Origin: an uncultured Lachnospiraceae bacterium | Lineage (GTDB): Bacteria > Bacillota > Clostridia > Lachnospirales > Lachnospiraceae | Assembly (NCBI GenBank): GCA_950097145.1 | Contig: CATNCF010000004.1 | Location: forward strand, 1 to 64,000 | DNA length: 64,000 bases | Reading direction: 5' to 3' | Shown here: positions 16,192 through 27,063 of the stretch, in pieces | Layout: every line of letters begins with the position of its first letter | How positions within the stretch are numbered: the stretch's first letter is position 1 | Notes under the pieces: model-generated | The model's database searches: none | What the model saw: the letters and a program-made list of their open reading frames with translations, nothing else | What the model was told of the DNA's origin: nothing | Made by a program: the position numbers and the translations under genes

Positions 16192-17367
16192 TTATGTCCT
16201 CAAAGGAATCACAGAAATATCTACTTCAATATCCCGCATCCAATATTTTGTCTTCACATATTCTTCAATGCTGCATTTCATCAGCTCCGCATCCTTACTG
16301 GGACCCACAATGACCCGTCTGATGGGAAGATGTCCGTCACACCAGATTTTGAAATCGCGAATAGGAGGCGTCTGCTGCCACATCATTAACCGCAGTTTCA
16401 CACACACCTTTTCTTGAAATTTTCCATTTGAAATCACAATCTCGTTTTTATCCATTGGATATTTTATTTCATCTTTGACTAACGTAATATCTATCCTCTC
16501 CGATTTTAAATCTTGTTTCAGTTTTTCTAAAAGACGCGTCCAGTCCTCATTTGCATAGTACACCTTAATTGTCTCTTCTTCTGCTTGGAGCTGATTGCCA
16601 AATTTTACTCTTATATTTGGTTTTTTGATCCCGTCCACATCCAAATATACATATTTTTGATGCAATAAGTGCTGCTGGGTTTCCGGAACTAGCTGTTTCA
16701 TGTCAAATATCAAACGGTACTCTTTTTCTTCATAAAATTTGTTATTCTTAATATAAGGTATCATTCCCACAGCATACTGCTGCCTGCTGTCTTCCGGCGC
16801 CGTCATAATTTTTTGCATCCGGCCTTTGAGTTTCTGATTACTTCTGCCCGTATTTCCAATATAGATGACAGAATATGGAGATACAATAGCTCCTACAAAA
16901 ATTTCATCATCTGACATCAAATCCTTGGATAAATACTTATTTTCTTCCTTATTATTCATAACTGTGTAACAGTAATAAGAAGAAAATCCATCCTTGAAAC
17001 CATATAATCCTTTGGAAAAATCAAATTCCAGGGACACGCCTTCCTTTGCGTATCCTCTCCACTGGCTGAGCAAATCTCCCTGTTTGCAGAAGCATACCAT
17101 GAAGGGCAGTGCATCTGTTTCTTTCGGCTGTATTCCAACACTTTTCATGGCTTGCGCTATTTTATTCGTGCCAATCATATTTTCTTCACAGTCATTGGAA
17201 AACATAATATGCCTTGCCAGTAAAGTTTCACTCTCCATGATCAGCCAAAATACCTCTCTCGACGTATAGTGGAACAGCGATTTATCGGGCAACTGAAAAA
17301 TTCCAAGCTGTTCAAGTTCATCATTGGCCATTTTCTGCGCATTTTCTGAATATGTCCATTTATTCAT
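16192..17367 (-). CDS. DUF2971 domain protein
   Basis: A 391-residue protein with the hallmarks of DUF2971: LFHYTSREVFWLIMESETLLARH (about residues 32-54), MFSNDCEEN, and SQWRGYAKEGVSLEFDF (about 105-121). A downstream segment (EEKEYRLIFDM) matches the family's EREWRL-like motif. DUF2971 proteins are of unknown activity and are often found near defence genes. The ATG at 17367 was preferred (GGGGA 7 bases upstream) over a start at 17433, which would overlap the previous gene. It is 19 bases after the receiver-like gene and is the last gene of the three-gene operon that starts at 23805. Confidence 0.85.
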   Translation of the reverse strand: MNKWTYSENAQKMANDELEQLGIFQLPDKSLFHYTSREVFWLIMESETLLARHIMFSNDCEENMIGTNKIAQAMKSVGIQPKETDALPFMVCFCKQGDLLSQWRGYAKEGVSLEFDFSKGLYGFKDGFSSYYCYTVMNNKEENKYLSKDLMSDDEIFVGAIVSPYSVIYIGNTGRSNQKLKGRMQKIMTAPEDSRQQYAVGMIPYIKNNKFYEEKEYRLIFDMKQLVPETQQHLLHQKYVYLDVDGIKKPNIRVKFGNQLQAEEETIKVYYANEDWTRLLEKLKQDLKSERIDITLVKDEIKYPMDKNEIVISNGKFQEKVCVKLRLMMWQQTPPIRDFKIWCDGHLPIRRVIVGPSKDAELMKCSIEEYVKTKYWMRDIEVDISVIPLRT

Positions 17368-17386
17368 ACACAATCCCCTATGTTTT

Positions 17387-17893
17387 TTATTCAAAGTATT
17401 GTTTATAGTATAAGAACAATTTGTCAATTTCACTTTCTAATTTATATCTCAACAATGCATTTTTTGCAATAAACTGGTTGGATAAATCTATCCCCATTAT
17501 GACATCACTGCGCGTTGCAAAAGTTGCCGTCCCAGTTATCATGTAAATTGGAATTCTATCACAAAATTTAAAGTAAATTTTCTTGGCCAAATCCGCTTGA
17601 GGATAATAACTGGACAATGTATTTTCAATATCTTCTTTTGTGAGAAGGACATCTAAAAGCAGCCCGATCTGCTCCTCATGATCGTCATTTAAAAATTTTT
17701 CTATCTGCTTCATTACACCTGACTCATAATATTTATGCCCATTCTCCCCATCCTCAATGGTACCCTCTAATGCTTCAAAATGAAACGTATATTTACTGTC
17801 ATTTTTTTGTTCTGCCCTCTCATTTAGCCGCGCAACAATCTCTTTCGCTTCTTTCTGGCAGTCTTCAATCAGCAAAATTTTAAGATTCCTCAT
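17387..17893 (-). CDS. Receiver-like regulatory protein
   Basis: A 168-residue protein related to response-regulator receivers. It opens with LKILLIEDCQKEAKEIVARL (strand 1 and the acidic pair). IGLLLDVLLTKEDIE supplies a candidate phospho-Asp (about residue 82). IPIYMITGTATFATR gives the Thr of strand 4, and NQFIAKNALL gives the conserved Lys near residue 151. An insert of about 25 residues lies between strands 1 and 3 compared with classic receivers. No output domain follows. The ATG overlaps the stop of the 1971-residue gene in an ATGA, so the two are translationally coupled. Confidence 0.78.
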   Translation of the reverse strand: MRNLKILLIEDCQKEAKEIVARLNERAEQKNDSKYTFHFEALEGTIEDGENGHKYYESGVMKQIEKFLNDDHEEQIGLLLDVLLTKEDIENTLSSYYPQADLAKKIYFKFCDRIPIYMITGTATFATRSDVIMGIDLSNQFIAKNALLRYKLESEIDKLFLYYKQYFE

Positions 17894-20800
17894 TTCCCAC
17901 CCTTCCTTTCTATGATTGGCAGTTTCACTACATAATACCATTCTCTGTTTCCATTTTTCTCCTCACTCCTAATTGCAAACAACTCATTGTAATGCACATT
18001 TTGATACCAGCTCTGGCAGGTATCAAAAATAACAGCCTGTGAAATTCCTTCCCCGCTCCTGTAAGCCTCCGGCATAACTTCTTTTTCGATTTTTTCTTTC
18101 ATTTTCTCATTTACACAATTTTCAATACACAGATTATTATCTTTCAAAGAGATTGTAATAATTTTATATCCTTCTTCCGTACTTACGCCATGCTTTTTCG
18201 CATTCTGAAAAACCGCCAGAAACAGTGTCCGCAGCATATCCGGATCTGGTATTTTATCTGGCTGCTCTGTGCCTTTTCTTAATTTCTGTTCCATCAGTTC
18301 TTCCTGATTTTTAAATTCGATTTTCAAATTCCATATTGTACAAGCGGCTTCAAAACATTCTTTTTCTCCTTCCCAAAACTGCATAAGATTCATATCACTT
18401 AATGACATTAAATATTTTCCTTTATCTCCTAAAACCTGTGAATTCATATATCCAATCATACTATTAACTATAAGGTCAAAGTACTTTTTATAAAAACATT
18501 TCTCTTGTTCTTCTTTTTCCTGATACGTCTGGCTGCATATCCATTCCACCAATTCCTGAAATTGTTTTACCAAAAATTCAATTTCCGTATGTCCCACTGC
18601 CCTGGATTTAAGCATCTGCTGTTTATAGAACAGACTGTCCGTCCAGTTTTGCAGTAAAGTACTTCCAGATAAGTTCAAAATCTTCCAGATTTTATTCCGA
18701 AAAATCAAAATATTCTTTAATGCGTGTAATATCTCCTTTTCTTCTGTTGTATTAAAAGGAAACAGCATATATATAATTGGAATATCATCTCTCCCGCCGC
18801 TAATTCCATCATAAAACTTCAGTAATATCCACTTCTGTTTATTCTGCCAATTACAAATTGTATATGTATCCCCCTCAAAGCTGTCATTCTTCTTCATAAA
18901 TTCAAGGACATACTGCTCTTTATTTTCCATTCTCCGTATTTCAGCGCTTTCACCCAGCTCCAAGGCAATGTATTTGTCCGCCTGTCCCTTTTTTGTTTTA
19001 TAGGGAACGATAATTTCCCCATCAATAGCCCCGCTGGCCGCCTTCAAATATCCCAGCATTTCTGTAAATTTATTTTTCAGTTCTTCTAAGCTTTCCTTTT
19101 CTTCTCTAAACTCCATGCCCGGAGTTTTCCATTCTTGAAAAATTTTTTGATATAATAATTGGAATTTCACCATACCCTCAAGCTTTTTCACGTCGCTGGC
19201 CGAAGAAAATTCTATAATTTTCCCTCCGTCGTCCACTTTTACCATCTTATGAAAGGAAAGATATTGTATGAAATTATCAAAATAATAATTTTCATTCAGC
19301 ATCTCTTTTAAATTATCTTCTGTACATTCCATACCATTTGCAAAACAGTCTGCGAGATATTCAATCCCATAATCCGCCAGTTTTGTATTTTCCAGATAAG
19401 CTTTTCTTTTAAACGCTGTAAAACTGTCTTTACCAGCCAAAGATACAATTTCTTTTTCTGCAAAATTATCCTGATATTCTTCATCATATAACAGGAGATA
19501 TTCCAGAAACAGCCCTTTTGCAAAATCATTACTCTGGCCAACAAGCTGTTTCACCCTGTTCAGATAATTATCTACAAAAGCTTTGCGTTCCCTCTCATCT
19601 CCAATATGATTCATGCAATACTCCATAATCCGGTTCATACTGCGCTTTCTTATGATATAGTTTGACTCTAATTCTGCAAGTCTATTCAATAACATTGTTA
19701 TAATTTTTGTTCTATTGGCTGTATTATTCCATAACTGTTCCAAAATACAATATAAGTTTTCCTGGCCCACAGGTTCAGCATCCTGTATTAAGATATTCAG
19801 CATAATCAGCATGAGTTCAAAAACTGCCTCTTTTTCTTCTTTGCGAAAAGTCAGAAACGGACGCCCTAAAACTTTTAACATTGCCACCAATTCTTCAAAA
19901 TTCTCTTCTGAATCCACAGGGAATAAATGATCCACAATTTCCTGTCCCAACACCATTTTATCCACAGAACCGCATAAAACATCCATGAGATTCTTTGCCT
20001 TATGTGACGCAATCATATATTGTTTTGCCCTGGCCTGGCGCTTTACAGAGTTCTTTTCTTTTTTCCATTCCAGCCTCTCAATTGATTTGCACTCAATTTT
20101 CCTGCTTTTTTGTTTCCAATAACCATAAACTTCATTTAAGGAGGCCTGTTCCGCCAATTTGTTCCACTCATTATATTTTTTACATAAAACACAGGCGTCT
20201 GAATTAACTCTCATAGAAGAAATATTCAAATTAAAATAAGCCATAAAATATTTTGTATCTTCTATATAATTTTTTATGGAAGACTTAGACATTCTATTTA
20301 ACAGCAGAACGATACTTTTAAATATGTTAATTGTAACTTTCCTCGTGGTTTTCACATCAATCAAAGAACGAATCAGACTTCTCATGCGCAAAAAGGTATG
20401 ACCTGAAATGATGGTATCGTCCACATAGTGAAAGTTGATGACAGATTCCTCATCATCCAGGCATAAATTATCATATAATTGCTGGACAGAACTATATTTT
20501 GTTTTAACATTCATTCGAAATTCTTTTTCAGCAGCAAAATGAAGAACAAGCGCCGCATTACGAAACAGATACCCGTTTACTTCTTCCACAAATGCGGTAT
20601 TGCTAAAATGAAGGGGCGCAACAATAATATCATAAACTTTACGCTCTTCCTTAGGAAATAAACTCTTCTGCCCTTCAAGCCATATCTGGACATTCTTCCT
20701 TATATCTGGAAAATCCCATAATTTTTCCGTAGAAAAATAGTAATTAAAATGATTTCCATTGCGCTCTACATGATCGTACACCAAGAACTTTGACAACTCT

Positions 20801-23800
20801 TGTAATCGTTCCGTTTCTTCATCCAAACCATTGTAAACCTGCCGTTTGAGTCTGTCTCCCTGCTTTTTTATTCCGATTGCCTGCATAGGAACAACTGACT
20901 CCTTATTGGTTTCTACTAATGGAAGTTCTTCTGTATATGTTTCTTCTGGAAAACATGCCTTACATTTCAATGGATGAGCCCATTCTGCTTTTACTTCTAC
21001 ATAAAACTTCATTCTGCTTTTATCTATCTTAGATATAATGGTGTTCTCTTCCGTTCTGCTCTTTTCCCAATACGGATTTTCATCAAGATCAGAAATTAAT
21101 ATAAATCCATAATTCAGTACTTTATAAAGCTGAAAGTCTTCATAAGCAGAATATTTTTCTGTTTTTAATGCTTCTCTTATGGTTTTCACCAAAAATCCAG
21201 AAGTCTTAATATGGGTTGTCATTGTGGAATTAATGGGGACAATTATAACAAACTGATGATCCTTATATCTTGCAAAAGAACCAAGCCCTCTGAATTTGCC
21301 TACTGATTTCTGCTCATAAATCAAATATTCCGTGTGAATATCCATCTGTTCAAACATATTGCATAATTCACTCAATAACATCTCAGAATAATTTTCGTAC
21401 CCCACCAGCGTAAACGGTTTATTCAGATCAAGGTCGTTATTATTATTCAGCTCATTAAAGAGCCAATATGCAAAACGTGAGGTATAATAGTTATTATGGA
21501 ATAATAACTCTGCTTCATAAAAGGACCGCACATGGATTTTAGACCCGACCCTGACGTGCAGTTTTTCTAATTTACAGCCAAATTTTTCTGACTGGACATC
21601 CTGATTCAACACATTTAAAAGGCTTCGTTCAAACAGAGTTTGTTCCACACTTCCATATTTTATCATGTCAAAGGGTACGATGCTCACAACTTCATTTGGG
21701 GCTGTTCCCATCTTATGGTTTTTAAGCATTTTCTTAAGAATCTTGAGACAGTCAGGATGAATGCAGCGGGCAAAAGCAAGCTTTTCCGTACTGCCAATTG
21801 CTTCACCCAAATTCACGCCTGAAATCAAAAATTCTTCCCCTTCCTTCTGGCCGCTCATGAACACCTGGGTGCCTTTCATCAATTGATTAACACCCTGTTT
21901 GTCATAAAATAATGCCATCATTCTGGTTATTTCGATAAAATGAGACTGTGAACATTCCGTTATCATGATATAGCAGTTCTGATCCCGCGGCTTCTGCGCA
22001 ATATAGAGCATAACAGCCTTACAAAACATTTCTATCATGGTAAGCGCTATCTTTTCCGCTGAAAAATGAAGAATCAGATTTTCACCTGTGTTTTGCATGA
22101 TGCTTTCTTTTAATTTCACTGCCAGTTTTTGGATCGTTCTTTCTTTTATCTCTTGATAGTGAAGCTCTTGATTTTCGCCACGTACTTCTTGAAACATAGC
22201 CGTACAGTAATTTGACGTAAAATCAATCGTCTCACAAACGCTATATTTTCTCAAGAGACAGTTTGTATAATTAATATTGACATTCAAAGAAATATTCTGC
22301 ATTTCTTTTTTTGCTCTAAAGGGCATAAGGATATCATACTGGGTTCCAGGTATTCCAGCAGACCGAGATGCGGCTCTATCATTCTTGATGGAACTATAGA
22401 ACTCCCGGTCCTGCTGAATCAGATAGTCCCTCTGGCTCCGTACTCGAAAATACCCCTCATAGCAAGAAACCAGTGATTCAAAAATCTGCAGTCCATAATG
22501 GTGCACTATATTTTCAGAGATTCCATTATATTCATGCCAAAAACTTGAATTCTCAAAAAAATCTGAAACTTTTAAATTTGAGGCTTGTCCTAAAATCTGT
22601 TGATAAATCCCTTTTTCCTCTTGGTTTGCACATTCCATTCTCACTTGAAAACTGTGAAAAAACTGATTCGGTATTGTGCAGTGCGAAAAATCAACAACTT
22701 TTATTTCCATATAGTTGACAGAAATCCCTGCTCCCGTTCGTTCCTCCATATAATTATGATACTGTGTTTTAAGATAAGCTCCGCTTCGTCCTTCACTATC
22801 ATTATGGACACGAAAGCAAAAATATCCTCTTCGGTTTTCTGAATGATACACATTTTCAAGAATCTGAAGCAATCCATCTGCCATATCTCTTGCATCAAAT
22901 ATCTCTTGTTCTATTTGTTCCATAGAATCTGTATCTTCATTCTTCAAAAAATAATCTGAAATGCAAAAAATATACATTGCAAGCAATGGCATATCTTTCA
23001 CAAGTTCAAACAATTCTTTTGACTTCCAGATTTCATATCTCTTTTGGACAAAACCTATGTTTTCATTTTCTTTGGTGCAAAAACATTCTGAAAAAATATT
23101 CATCAGTCTTACATCTGAGTCCTTAGAATTCACAATAACTTCTTTTGGATATCTTTTCTTTAACGCCATTGGACATATATGGGGTAAAAAGTAGTCCTTC
23201 GTATATTCATATCCACTAGCTCCAATTGATATTCTCCGATATAACTTTAGTAAAAATGATTGTACTGACTGGTGCCAATATTCCGCTGTCTTTTCATCTT
23301 CTCCAATATAAAAAATAGGTGAAAAACGCCGGATAATCCGCATTTTATTAAAATTCACTTTATGGTAACGCTGATGTTCCAGGGCATAACATTCTCCTAT
23401 CTTTTCCGTAAATTCAAGATTAGATAACAAATCCTTGATATTTGCAGTAATTTTCCGCTGATTGTCAGCCCTGACACATAAGATGCTTTTTCCATTTAAT
23501 TTATCATTTGCCAAACAATAATAAATTAAATTTACCATTTCATTTTCATTCGAGCAGTCCACAAAGAACACACACTTTATCATATCTCCCTGAACAAATT
23601 TCGGTGGTTCTTCCCTAAAGCTTTTCCGTGTTTTTCTTATAATCTCTTCAAATGACAATTCCTGTTCCGAAGAAAAGTAGGTAACCTTATTCAGAAACTC
23701 CATATGGCTATTTATTGCTCCATTGAAAAACCCGTCCACTGCCTGCAGGCAGTTTGCATATTCCTCCTGCTTGTTTAAGATATCAAATATCATTGTCCAA

Positions 23801-23805
23801 TACAT
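17890..23805 (-). CDS. 1971-residue protein with PRTase-like motifs and C-terminal histidine-kinase-type ATPase
   Basis: A very large cytoplasmic protein with no signal peptide or transmembrane segment that I can see. About residues 845-865 contain FVIIVPINSTMTTHIK, and about 1115-1135 contain VINFHYVDDTIISGHTFLRM. Both resemble the PRPP-binding loop of type I phosphoribosyltransferases (hydrophobic strand, DD, T/S-G-x-T). The second is preceded by IIVAPLHFSNTAFVEEVNG and followed by a CVLCKK pair near 1210; another KCKACF pair is near 945. The C-terminus (about 1855-1960) looks like a GHKL/HATPase: LFLAVFQNAKKHGVS (N box), ITISLKDNNLCIENC and YRSGEGISQAVI (G box). I recognise no family for the N-terminal 800 residues. 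The ATG at 23805 has AGGGGG 7 bases upstream. Confidence 0.75.
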   Translation of the reverse strand: MYWTMIFDILNKQEEYANCLQAVDGFFNGAINSHMEFLNKVTYFSSEQELSFEEIIRKTRKSFREEPPKFVQGDMIKCVFFVDCSNENEMVNLIYYCLANDKLNGKSILCVRADNQRKITANIKDLLSNLEFTEKIGECYALEHQRYHKVNFNKMRIIRRFSPIFYIGEDEKTAEYWHQSVQSFLLKLYRRISIGASGYEYTKDYFLPHICPMALKKRYPKEVIVNSKDSDVRLMNIFSECFCTKENENIGFVQKRYEIWKSKELFELVKDMPLLAMYIFCISDYFLKNEDTDSMEQIEQEIFDARDMADGLLQILENVYHSENRRGYFCFRVHNDSEGRSGAYLKTQYHNYMEERTGAGISVNYMEIKVVDFSHCTIPNQFFHSFQVRMECANQEEKGIYQQILGQASNLKVSDFFENSSFWHEYNGISENIVHHYGLQIFESLVSCYEGYFRVRSQRDYLIQQDREFYSSIKNDRAASRSAGIPGTQYDILMPFRAKKEMQNISLNVNINYTNCLLRKYSVCETIDFTSNYCTAMFQEVRGENQELHYQEIKERTIQKLAVKLKESIMQNTGENLILHFSAEKIALTMIEMFCKAVMLYIAQKPRDQNCYIMITECSQSHFIEITRMMALFYDKQGVNQLMKGTQVFMSGQKEGEEFLISGVNLGEAIGSTEKLAFARCIHPDCLKILKKMLKNHKMGTAPNEVVSIVPFDMIKYGSVEQTLFERSLLNVLNQDVQSEKFGCKLEKLHVRVGSKIHVRSFYEAELLFHNNYYTSRFAYWLFNELNNNNDLDLNKPFTLVGYENYSEMLLSELCNMFEQMDIHTEYLIYEQKSVGKFRGLGSFARYKDHQFVIIVPINSTMTTHIKTSGFLVKTIREALKTEKYSAYEDFQLYKVLNYGFILISDLDENPYWEKSRTEENTIISKIDKSRMKFYVEVKAEWAHPLKCKACFPEETYTEELPLVETNKESVVPMQAIGIKKQGDRLKRQVYNGLDEETERLQELSKFLVYDHVERNGNHFNYYFSTEKLWDFPDIRKNVQIWLEGQKSLFPKEERKVYDIIVAPLHFSNTAFVEEVNGYLFRNAALVLHFAAEKEFRMNVKTKYSSVQQLYDNLCLDDEESVINFHYVDDTIISGHTFLRMRSLIRSLIDVKTTRKVTINIFKSIVLLLNRMSKSSIKNYIEDTKYFMAYFNLNISSMRVNSDACVLCKKYNEWNKLAEQASLNEVYGYWKQKSRKIECKSIERLEWKKEKNSVKRQARAKQYMIASHKAKNLMDVLCGSVDKMVLGQEIVDHLFPVDSEENFEELVAMLKVLGRPFLTFRKEEKEAVFELMLIMLNILIQDAEPVGQENLYCILEQLWNNTANRTKIITMLLNRLAELESNYIIRKRSMNRIMEYCMNHIGDERERKAFVDNYLNRVKQLVGQSNDFAKGLFLEYLLLYDEEYQDNFAEKEIVSLAGKDSFTAFKRKAYLENTKLADYGIEYLADCFANGMECTEDNLKEMLNENYYFDNFIQYLSFHKMVKVDDGGKIIEFSSASDVKKLEGMVKFQLLYQKIFQEWKTPGMEFREEKESLEELKNKFTEMLGYLKAASGAIDGEIIVPYKTKKGQADKYIALELGESAEIRRMENKEQYVLEFMKKNDSFEGDTYTICNWQNKQKWILLKFYDGISGGRDDIPIIYMLFPFNTTEEKEILHALKNILIFRNKIWKILNLSGSTLLQNWTDSLFYKQQMLKSRAVGHTEIEFLVKQFQELVEWICSQTYQEKEEQEKCFYKKYFDLIVNSMIGYMNSQVLGDKGKYLMSLSDMNLMQFWEGEKECFEAACTIWNLKIEFKNQEELMEQKLRKGTEQPDKIPDPDMLRTLFLAVFQNAKKHGVSTEEGYKIITISLKDNNLCIENCVNEKMKEKIEKEVMPEAYRSGEGISQAVIFDTCQSWYQNVHYNELFAIRSEEKNGNREWYYVVKLPIIERKGGK

Positions 23806-23917
23806 TAATTTTCCCCCTATTATCCTTTTATACTCTGCAAATATGCTATATCCCAGCATTAGGCTGTCCTATTTTATGTATATAATTCTTCAGCTTTTTA
23901 TCCGATAGTTCATTAAT

Positions 23918-23946
23918 ATTTTACCATGCAGAAAAATAATTCACAA
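23918..23946 (-). promoter_or_regulatory. Promoter of the PRTase/receiver/DUF2971 operon
   Basis: On the minus strand, TTGTGA and TAAAAT are spaced by 17 bases and followed by an A/T-rich leader of about 105 bases before the ATG at 23805. No operator symmetry is obvious. Confidence 0.55.
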
Positions 23947-24029: not shown

Positions 24030-24785
24030 TTATTGAAAAAGCTGTTCGCTGGAAAAGAAATTGTCCGCCTCTTTTGAAATATTCACCAAAAGTTTCCGGC
24101 GTTCCTTCTTTTCAGCATCTTCCTCTTCTTTCAGAATATCCCTGGCTTTCAGCCCTTTATAAACCATAAACCACAGTCCCCAGTATTCTTTACCTGAAAT
24201 CTGCATGAAATTACGCAGCTCTTCATTCATCTGGTCATAATATCCCACCAGATACTGCTCGTCCCCAGTATCGTTCTTCACTTCCTGGATGAACATATCA
24301 AGCATGTTTTGCAGTTCTATTTTCAGCCTTCCTTTATCCTCTGAGAAAATAGTATCTTTCATTTCCTCAGAGAATGAATATTCAGCCTTCGTGCCGGTCC
24401 CAGTATTACCTAATTGGTTTACCAGCGCTTCCATTTCATCATCTGCAGACAAGATTCCAGATTCAAAGGCTTTTGTTTCTTCTCCGTGTTCTGCAGAATG
24501 CTCTTTATAAGGCTCGTCTGTCAGGCTTTTTTCCGCATGATGGTAAAATAATGCTTTCGTCAGCCCATTCATTTCATCCAGGCGGAACCTGTCCAGAGAA
24601 TCAAAGTATTCTTTTAGCTCTTCAAAATGACTGCTGCGGCCAAACAATTCCTCTCCCATTCTTCGAAAGAAATCATCATCCTGTACTTTCAGATGCATGA
24701 TACAGTCTCCCATTTTGTCCAGATCAATGGGTACGCACTTGACAAACAGTTCTGCTGTTTTCTCCTTATAACCTTTTTCTATCAT
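24030..24785 (-). CDS. Hypothetical partner of the dynamin-like GTPase
   Basis: A 251-residue, mostly helical, acidic soluble protein (MEALVNQLGNTGTGTKAEYS, KEYWGLWFMVYKGLKARDIL). I recognise no family. Its start overlaps the 3' end of the GTPase gene by 20 bases, so the two products are translated together and probably act together. The ribosome binding site is weak (AGAAGAG), in keeping with translational coupling. A hairpin follows its stop. Confidence 0.65.
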   Translation of the reverse strand: MIEKGYKEKTAELFVKCVPIDLDKMGDCIMHLKVQDDDFFRRMGEELFGRSSHFEELKEYFDSLDRFRLDEMNGLTKALFYHHAEKSLTDEPYKEHSAEHGEETKAFESGILSADDEMEALVNQLGNTGTGTKAEYSFSEEMKDTIFSEDKGRLKIELQNMLDMFIQEVKNDTGDEQYLVGYYDQMNEELRNFMQISGKEYWGLWFMVYKGLKARDILKEEEDAEKKERRKLLVNISKEADNFFSSEQLFQ

Positions 24786-26415
24786 TCTGCTCTTCTGAGG
24801 GAAAAGTCGCTATCCTTCTCACCGCTTTTTTCAGGGACTCTATGGATATCTGCCTTGCCTTTGCAATCCCAGAGGCATATTTGCAGGAATCTTCCACAAT
24901 CTTTTCCAATTCTATTCCTTTTTTCAGTTCCCTGACCATATCAATCCGCTGCTGCAGAAATGATTTACCTTGCTTTTCCCTGCTTTTTGACATGATGGCA
25001 GAGCTATAATTTTTCAACTCTGCCAGACGATTCAGCATATGATTCTCCACCATGGAATACAGGTAATCGTCTGACTGCTGCTGCGACAGATTCACTCTCA
25101 CAGTTCCAAGCTTCTGTTTCAGCCTGCTTCTCTGTATCTTTGCCTGTTCAAGGAGGCTGTCAGATTCTTTCTCAAGATGATCATCTATAGACTGCAGATG
25201 CCGCGCCATCTGGTCCAAAAATCCCTCCAGCATGGATTTTACTTCCTCATGGCTGCTCACATCAATCACTTTCCGGTATGAAATTCCTTCTTCTTTTTTA
25301 AATATATCATAAGCGCTGCTTTCCAATACTTTAAGATAATCTTCCGAACAGTTCCGTGGAATATCCTTCAAATGGTTCTGCAGGAATACCATCCAGTACC
25401 GGGCGTCTGATTCCTGGTGCTCCAGGAAAATTTCATTCAGTGTTTCGAAGAGGTGTTTGTCTTCCTCGTCCGGTCCTGACTCTGGATATCTGATGCGGTA
25501 TGGGCAGATAAATATTACGCCGTCGCTTTCATTTCTGGCGGCGTCCTGTACCTGTTTTATGGTATCTGCAGAGGGATCTCCGATTCCCACGGTATCCACC
25601 AGACGAATCCTCCCATCCACTCCCTGGATATTGGTTTTAATAACAGCATTTTTGACTGCAATATACCAGCAGTGATTCTGCTTAGACACAAACAGCTTGA
25701 TATCTTCCGATTTTGAAAGCATATACTGCAATTTTCCGCTTCCCATTTCCAGAAGCTCCAGATCTTCCAACCCCTGTCTCCCTGCTCCCAGTTCTGAGAT
25801 TCCAAGATAAGGCTCCCATTCCTTTCTGCTCTGTTCCTCCGTATAGGCTTCCATCAAACGCCCTATCTCTTTTATGCATGTCTTCACATCATCTTTTTTC
25901 CCTACCTCCAGATCGGGATAGTTTTTTTCCAGCTCTCCCGCCAGGTTTTTCAGATGTTCCAGGCTCTGCCTGATTTGCCCCGCAGTTAAATCTGGAACTT
26001 CCTGGGCATAAATCTGTTCCTTTGGAAAAATTTTCTGGAGCTTTTTTACCCTGTATTTCAACTCACTGTTGATATCCTGCCTTACCTCTTCCGCCGTCTT
26101 GAAGGTAAAATACGCCTTGGTATCGTTTCCTTCCATATTCTCAATGACAGAACGTACGCCTGTGCACGATGTGCCCGGCAGTGAGGGAATACAGTCGTCT
26201 CCCTTGCCCGTAGCAGACTGAAGGAACTGGCTCTTTCCCGATCCCACCTTTCCAATCACAACCAGATCAATGGTAGGCCTTCGGAACCGGGTCTGTAATC
26301 TCTCCAGAGAATCCATTACGCACTGGCAGGTTTCCCGGCTTTCTTCTGCTAATTTTTTTGCTTCCTGAAGATTTCTCGCCGTCTGTTTACCAAAAAGATT
26401 TTCTTGTTCTTCCAA
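24766..26415 (-). CDS. Dynamin-like / P-loop GTPase
   Basis: A 549-residue protein. The G1 loop is VIGKVGSGKSQFLQSATGKG (about residues 54-73), a switch-I-type Thr is in GTSCTGVRS, and G3 is RLVDTVGIGDPS (about 270-282). The N-terminal helix and a long C-terminal coiled coil (about 390-520: DDHLEKESDSLLEQAKIQRS) match the build of bacterial dynamin-like proteins, although the G4 NKxD is not clear. No membrane helix is evident. The only start in reach is TTG at 26415, with an in-frame TAA 18 bases upstream and no Shine-Dalgarno sequence. Bacterial dynamin-like pairs have roles in membrane repair and, in some cases, phage defence. Confidence 0.75.
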   Translation of the reverse strand: MEEQENLFGKQTARNLQEAKKLAEESRETCQCVMDSLERLQTRFRRPTIDLVVIGKVGSGKSQFLQSATGKGDDCIPSLPGTSCTGVRSVIENMEGNDTKAYFTFKTAEEVRQDINSELKYRVKKLQKIFPKEQIYAQEVPDLTAGQIRQSLEHLKNLAGELEKNYPDLEVGKKDDVKTCIKEIGRLMEAYTEEQSRKEWEPYLGISELGAGRQGLEDLELLEMGSGKLQYMLSKSEDIKLFVSKQNHCWYIAVKNAVIKTNIQGVDGRIRLVDTVGIGDPSADTIKQVQDAARNESDGVIFICPYRIRYPESGPDEEDKHLFETLNEIFLEHQESDARYWMVFLQNHLKDIPRNCSEDYLKVLESSAYDIFKKEEGISYRKVIDVSSHEEVKSMLEGFLDQMARHLQSIDDHLEKESDSLLEQAKIQRSRLKQKLGTVRVNLSQQQSDDYLYSMVENHMLNRLAELKNYSSAIMSKSREKQGKSFLQQRIDMVRELKKGIELEKIVEDSCKYASGIAKARQISIESLKKAVRRIATFPSEEQNDRKRL

Positions 26416-26786: not shown

Positions 26787-27063
26787 ATGGCTGGCTCTAC
26801 TACAAACATCAGCATCCGCATGGATTCAGACCTGAAAACACAGGCTGACAGACTGTTTGGGGAACTCGTCATGAACCTGACAACAGCATTCAGTATTTTT
26901 GTCCGCCAATCCCTCCGTGAGGGGCGGATTCCCTTTGACATCTCTCAACCAGCCAGGCAGCGAAACAGTTGCCGCCATGCTGGAAGCAGAAAGGATTGCG
27001 AAAGATCCAGCAGTAAAAAGGTATACTGATCTGGACGAACTGTTCGCAGACCTGAAAGCATGA
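26787..27063 (+). pseudogene. dinJ: DinJ/RelB-family antitoxin, frameshifted
   Basis: The N-terminal part reads TNISIRMDSDLKTQADRLFG and RQSLREGRIPFDIS, a typical ribbon-helix-helix DinJ/RelB antitoxin. After IPFDIS the frame is lost, but the next frame continues as LNQPGSETVAAMLEAERIAK and DLDELFADLKA with a stop at 27061-27063. The break lies in a TCTC tract, consistent with loss of one CT pair. AGCAGGAGA precedes the ATG. The protein as read in its first frame would end with an unrelated tail (80 residues), so the antitoxin is very probably non-functional. Confidence 0.75.

Follow-up and report, generated by a model that had tools for sequence, protein, structure and literature searches.

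A conserved three-gene operon of a giant PRTase-like protein, a receiver-like protein and a DUF2971 protein: a candidate anti-phage alarm relay in Lachnospiraceae

Introduction

Among the described defence systems, Detocs, with the kinase DtcA and the receiver DtcB, comes closest to the operon treated here. It has three genes and an ATP-degrading effector, according to the available part of its description (PMC11249213). The accessible part of a further study reports that phosphoribosyltransferases (PRTases) are employed in conflict-type operons of the Ter system (PMC7824862), where they are predicted nucleotide signal makers. We analysed a three-gene operon on the minus strand of contig CATNCF010000004.1 (GCA_950097145.1) from an uncultured Lachnospiraceae bacterium. 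It lies in a stretch of 64,000 nt, called the window in the following, and encodes a giant putative sensor protein with PRTase-like and histidine-kinase-type ATPase (HATPase) domains, a stand-alone receiver-like protein and a DUF2971 protein (Table 1).

With Detocs the operon shares a kinase-like protein, a stand-alone receiver-like protein and a probable effector without DNA-binding output. In contrast to Detocs, the giant contains two PRTase-like domains, a double CxxC motif and, at its N-terminus, a further HATPase. The effector differs as well: it is a DUF2971 protein here, whereas the best-described Detocs effector is of the nucleoside phosphorylase type and degrades ATP. By analogy, the operon may work like Detocs with another sensor and another effector; the two were likened by layout and description, not by DtcA/DtcB/DtcC sequence, and the operon is not classed as a member. 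PRTases in conflict-type operons are common to the Ter system and the present locus, but here they are joined to ATPases in one protein and paired with a receiver, and no Ter genes were noticed by eye.

The original prediction for this DNA regarded the set as unlike the described systems known to it. No description of the operon was found in a literature search that included the available parts of PMC7159879, PMC10952713, PMC7824862 and PMC11249213 and mostly did not extend to subscription papers; the three-gene layout resembles Detocs. In the accessible text of a BREX paper (PMC12839542) the words 'receiver', 'phosphoribosyl' and 'GHKL' do not occur. A figure legend in the available part of the DefensePredictor study (PMC13092281) mentions HATPase and REC domains, and a list in its text includes a purine phosphorylase. 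Our guess is that this HATPase/REC system is Detocs-like, and the operon may already appear there. No match for the giant or the receiver was obtained in PADLOC-DB, for which the inclusion of Detocs models was not checked.

Results

Operon structure and conservation

The open reading frame (ORF) list of the window contains three intact minus-strand ORFs in the order giant, receiver-like, DUF2971. All that had been claimed for their arrangement was found there: the 1971-residue giant, the receiver-like gene whose start overlaps the giant stop in an ATGA (17893-17890), and the DUF2971 gene, whose ATG follows the receiver stop after 19 bases. The giant ORF is open from 17890 to 23859 and gives 1989 aa counted from its first ATG; the ATG at 23805, preceded by AGGGGGA, is the likely start. 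A single promoter had also been proposed. The site concerned exists (Table 1), but promoter-like matches were no commoner in the window than in shuffled sequence (33 found, 30.2 expected).

A first whole-genome search in 295 genomes of the order detected one distant copy besides the window, and a single-sequence scan of genome contigs gave nothing. With a two-row alignment of the giant core (A3), 11 loci were obtained in genome contigs, and G363 was found in the phylum (2/398 genomes; here and for the family the window is included). A 13-row core alignment (A11) found the core in 7 of 299 genomes of the family, 2 of 391 of the class, 3 of 295 of the order (one of these a doubtful match of 35 residues), 2 of 29 of the genus (in one case a stop-interrupted fragment) and 2 of 167 of the order of G363. 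No giant core was found in phages, plasmids and viral contigs.

After removal of re-finds, 20 loci were retained: the window, L006-L016, L019, L089-L094 and L105. L003, L005 and L016 are one contig and were counted once; L017, L018, L080-L088, L095-L097, L099 and L101-L104 represent parts of counted loci or the same loci found again. No giant of L089-L094 is more than 40% identical to another giant (L105 outside the comparison), so that they are not duplicates. Named carriers are assemblies of Roseburia, other Lachnospiraceae, Clostridiales, Oscillospiraceae, Ruminococcus, Defluviitaleaceae and one Anaerolineaceae; these belong to Bacillota and, in one case, Chloroflexota. A second match in the window's own genome (L004, E 1.9e-4), which sits among ordinary transport genes, was dropped; a match in G244 (35 residues, one stop) was dropped, too. 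A stop-containing piece of the core in a genome from the same genus as the window (L100, G1343:C2:159711-160187), perhaps a decayed remnant, was left out of the locus count.

In 17 of the 18 loci with readable downstream DNA (the window, L006-L009, L011-L015, L019, L089-L091, L093, L094 and L105), the giant gene is succeeded on the same strand first by the receiver-like and then by the DUF2971 gene; in L010 the contig ends after the giant and in L016 after the receiver. Co-occurrence in other genomes, proposed as a check on the original prediction, is thereby confirmed. As 16 further loci show the same order of genes, the operon is not a chance arrangement. Intergenic gaps ranged from -62 to +41 bases (eight loci, longest ORFs). 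The giant is split in four loci, with a separate C-terminal cassette in L012 and L013 and a separate N-terminal module in L015 and L019. Over 15 of the 17 triads (all but L011 and L105) the identities of the three proteins co-vary (r 0.93, 0.95 and 0.91; 0/5000 permutations), also after thinning to 10 loci (r 0.62, 0.67 and 0.56; 5, 2 and 9 of 5000 permutations).

Table 1 Features of the operon in the window (positions of the window)
Feature	Position	Strand	Description
Giant sensor protein	17890..23805	-	1971 aa; HATPase, PRTase1, CxxC pairs flanking PRTase2, helical region, His + HATPase
N-terminal HATPase, Bergerat-type	22288..22941	-	N-box LLQILENxxHS, D-box VVDF, G-box HHYGLQIF, last strand GTQYDILMP
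PRTase1, orotate-PRTase/PurR-like fold	21139..21603	-	loop VPINSTMTT where the acidic PRPP motif would be
First CxxC pair (C948, C951)	20953..20964	-	invariant in 13/13 rows of A4
PRTase2	20275..20802	-	beta-alpha-beta-loop-beta-PRPP loop YVDDTIISGHT-alpha
Second CxxC pair (C1205, C1208)	20182..20193	-	invariant in 13/13 rows of A4
C-terminal His-containing helical stretch + HATPase	17893..18741	-	QNAKKHG ... GEGISQAV ... VVKLPI
Invariant His (KSRAVGH), candidate phospho-acceptor	18589..18591	-	18/18 rows + L105
Receiver-like protein, stand-alone	17387..17893	-	168 aa from ATG at 17893; ORF open from 17941; phospho-Asp codon 17651-17653
DUF2971 protein, probable effector	16192..17367	-	391 aa from ATG at 17367; ORF 16192-17433
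Promoter-like site TTGTGA-17-TAAAAT upstream of giant	23946-23918	-	no better than chance

Domains of the giant

Searches with the giant and the receiver in Pfam, PADLOC and NCBIfam gave no significant match (best E 0.11, 0.014, 0.077). Nothing significant was obtained with the giant as single-sequence query against the Protein Data Bank (PDB), and profiles built from four domain alignments matched PDB entries at chance level only (best E 0.11). The HATPase domains were detected with profiles. For the C-terminal HATPase, hhalign against HATPases of the own genome gave a probability of 92.2 (E 6e-7; 56 columns, N-box half only; control 0.11), so that the histidine-kinase-type ATPase predicted at the end of the giant was borne out. 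The His ahead of it is kept in 19 of 19 sequences (18 alignment rows and L105) and is the sole column of the cassette invariant in all 18 rows; an Asn (17) and an Arg (16) come next. The N-box Asn of this domain is present in 12/18 rows.

The N-terminal HATPase had been missed in the original prediction. Its N, H, D and G are invariant in 11/11 rows (alignment A7), and hhalign against own-genome kinases gave a probability of 85.5 (E 5.7e-6; control 0.3). Outside A7, the N-box is present in L019 and L089-L092, and L015 has Tyr for His; a pattern search of the giants of L093 and L094 (L105 left out) did not find it. The giant is predicted to be a soluble sensor kinase.

Motifs of the PRTase type had been noted, which holds for one of the two domains. 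In PRTase2, the loop for phosphoribosyl pyrophosphate (PRPP) is conserved, with the first D and the G invariant in 13/13 rows and the second D in 11/13, and the predicted order of strands and helices around it is the one given in Table 1. Among the later loci, a pattern search covering L089-L094 recovered the loop in L089, L090, L093 and, with the second D replaced, L092, but not in L091 and L094. The giant has the type I PRTase fold, but the acidic motif occurs in PRTase2 only. PRTase1 lacks the catalytic acids and, in 13/13 rows, the acidic PRPP-binding pair, unlike PurR and orotate PRTase, from which it also differs by lying inside a signalling giant. Profiles of PRTase1 and PRTase2 against seven PRTases of the own genome gave no significant match (0.6 and 3.5), the match of PRTase2 being at motif level only. 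The first CxxC pair is probably a metal site.

Receiver-like and DUF2971 proteins

The receiver-like protein carries the motifs IED ... LLLD ... MITGT ... FIAK. Of 18 such proteins, 17 have the Asp (16/16 rows of A18, and L105). L011 is the one miss; it was excluded from the receiver alignments for want of the Asp. As BLAST between the receivers of the window and L005 was not significant, the family assignment rests on gene position and residues.

DUF2971 is the only member of the trio recognised by Pfam (PF11185; shorter start, 7.7e-6, 27.6 bits, cut-off 22). PF11185 also scored above the cut-off for L089, L091 and the second piece of L011 and below it for L090, L093 and L105; no match was found for the third protein of L094. 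In L011 (8463-10132, Anaerolineaceae) the DUF2971 reading is split over two overlapping frames, by sequencing error or decay. The literature search turned up a single mention of DUF2971. Compared with the ADP-ribosyltransferase fold of DarT and Tpt1, the DUF2971 profile was not above control against DarT, tautomerase-type rows trailed by less than 1 Z unit, and the motif His is not invariant (10/17).

A natural exchange of the output part

The giant of L092 (L092:1129-8031) matches positions 57 to 1760 of the 2044 of the giant profile with its residues 16-1858 (9e-152). From residue 1870 on, a calcineurin-like phosphoesterase (1.4e-13) replaces the His + HATPase cassette. The cassette profile gave no match in L092 at E 10; it matched L015, L105 and the separate gene of L012, L012 and L015 having been in its alignment. 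The two ORFs after the L092 giant have no Pfam match and are unlike the receiver or DUF2971. Joint absence of cassette, receiver and DUF2971 is expected if they form one output arm, and this single example suggests that the arm is one swappable cassette. It also suggests a division of the giant into sensor and output parts, which could be tested separately.

Genomic neighbourhood

PADLOC was run on 18 neighbour proteins chosen by eye (L009, L010, L012-L014, L019, L089, L090 and L094), with no background rate for comparison; three of them were without a match at E 0.001, and several matched only weakly. In L019 (1-18001) the triad lies divergent from a BREX operon with BrxA (2.6e-63), BrxB (6.2e-57), BrxC (E 0) and PglX (2e-126, partial), and an AbiH-type gene (3.3e-7, barely over the cut-off) is found on the other side. 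L010 comes after HEC-02A (4.1e-121) and HEC-02B (8.4e-50). Next to L094 are genes for a type II methyltransferase (9.2e-71) and, with a weaker match, a restriction-enzyme-like protein (2.1e-10). L009 has a TIR protein (3e-11) as neighbour, and L014 a weak LmuA match (2.6e-9). A 605-aa protein just upstream of the triad in L089 (4561-6378) matches mad3 over part of its length (4.5e-29). The defence-island setting that had been proposed thus fits some relatives, but the two scanned neighbours in the window had no PADLOC defence match.

Discussion

In our view the three genes encode an intracellular alarm relay, most likely a defensive two-component system against phages, of the abortive-infection type; we give this reading a probability of about 0.5. 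The N-terminal ATPase and the two PRTase-like domains would sense when infection or stress alters nucleotides or PRPP. Phosphate derived from ATP would be passed to the invariant His of the C-terminal cassette and from there to the Asp of the receiver; this transfer is suggested by the conserved His-Asp pair and the tight gene coupling. The phosphorylated receiver might then bind or release the DUF2971 protein, the probable effector, which is possibly ADP-ribosyltransferase-like and would harm a host or phage target. Several results weigh against this reading. As single sequences, both HATPases are below the Pfam thresholds and the PRTase assignments below the family thresholds; the receiver had no Pfam receiver match, and its profile comparison reached a probability of 7.3, with a match to the motif only. 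Furthermore, the ADP-ribosyltransferase-like fold of DUF2971 is weakly indicated.

The cassette might also act as a phosphotransferase instead of a kinase, with phosphate passing from the N-terminal HATPase over the His to the receiver Asp and on to DUF2971. Spo0B and ChpT have a kinase-like fold that no longer binds ATP, and the complete N-terminal site (11/11) and the invariant His (18/18) contrast with the degenerate C-terminal N-box (12/18). Such a variant, which overlaps the proposed relay so that the odds are not exclusive, seems unlikely to us: the N-terminal N-box was not found by pattern in L093 and L094 and is altered in L015, kinase HATPases are still the best match of the C-terminal domain, and we know of no case in which a remote N-terminal HATPase phosphorylates a His of this kind. 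Quite unlikely is a purely mechanical role, in which the HATPases would close on a ligand like the GHKL ATPases Hsp90 and MutL, with the receiver as docking platform and its Asp only structural. The weak receiver profile match, the same degenerate N-box and the L011 receiver without Asp are consistent with it, but conservation of the His (19/19) and the Asp (17/18) is hard to explain without phosphotransfer, and in L092 the cassette and both small genes are lost jointly.

The relay could be regulatory without any part in defence: it might, for instance, adjust nucleotide or cell-surface metabolism, and DUF2971 would then be an ordinary enzyme under its control. Surface-sugar genes (sugar-nucleotide, glycosyltransferase) were seen by eye beside L006-L008, L010, L014, L091 and L092 (7/20 loci), and the window's scanned neighbours without PADLOC match point the same way. 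We regard this as rather improbable, since patchy presence (7/299), the stop-bearing fragment in a congener, placement against BREX and HEC-02 and the output swapped for a phosphoesterase fit conflict systems better. The surface-polysaccharide regions may be insertion hot spots for the operon.

A broader proposal goes beyond the defensive relay: a new class of immune relay, in which a pair of PRTase folds, one catalytically dead, would serve as nucleotide/PRPP alarm for interchangeable outputs. In most loci the output would be a His-Asp phosphorelay ending in a DUF2971 toxin, in another a fused calcineurin-like phosphoesterase. Such a class is possible, though doubtful. As for the original prediction in general, the three-gene unit held, and its domain content had been given incompletely. 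If the defensive relay is correct, two-component signalling in defence extends from the known three-gene type to a type with a PRTase-fold sensor, DUF2971 gains a testable role, and disturbance of nucleotides or PRPP becomes a candidate trigger of immunity.

Some further observations concern the surroundings of the operon. Recombinase or transposase-like genes were seen by eye beside L012, L092, L093, L094 and L105. Upstream of the operon in the window (24030-26415), a GTPase (MMR_HSR1, 7.6e-5) and a small overlapping partner are encoded; the pair had no PADLOC match and was not noticed by eye beside other triads. A terminator-like hairpin (24015-23981) lies between this pair and the operon. 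A short ORF at 26787-27029 looks by eye like a RelB/DinJ-type antitoxin and is possibly a toxin-antitoxin remnant.
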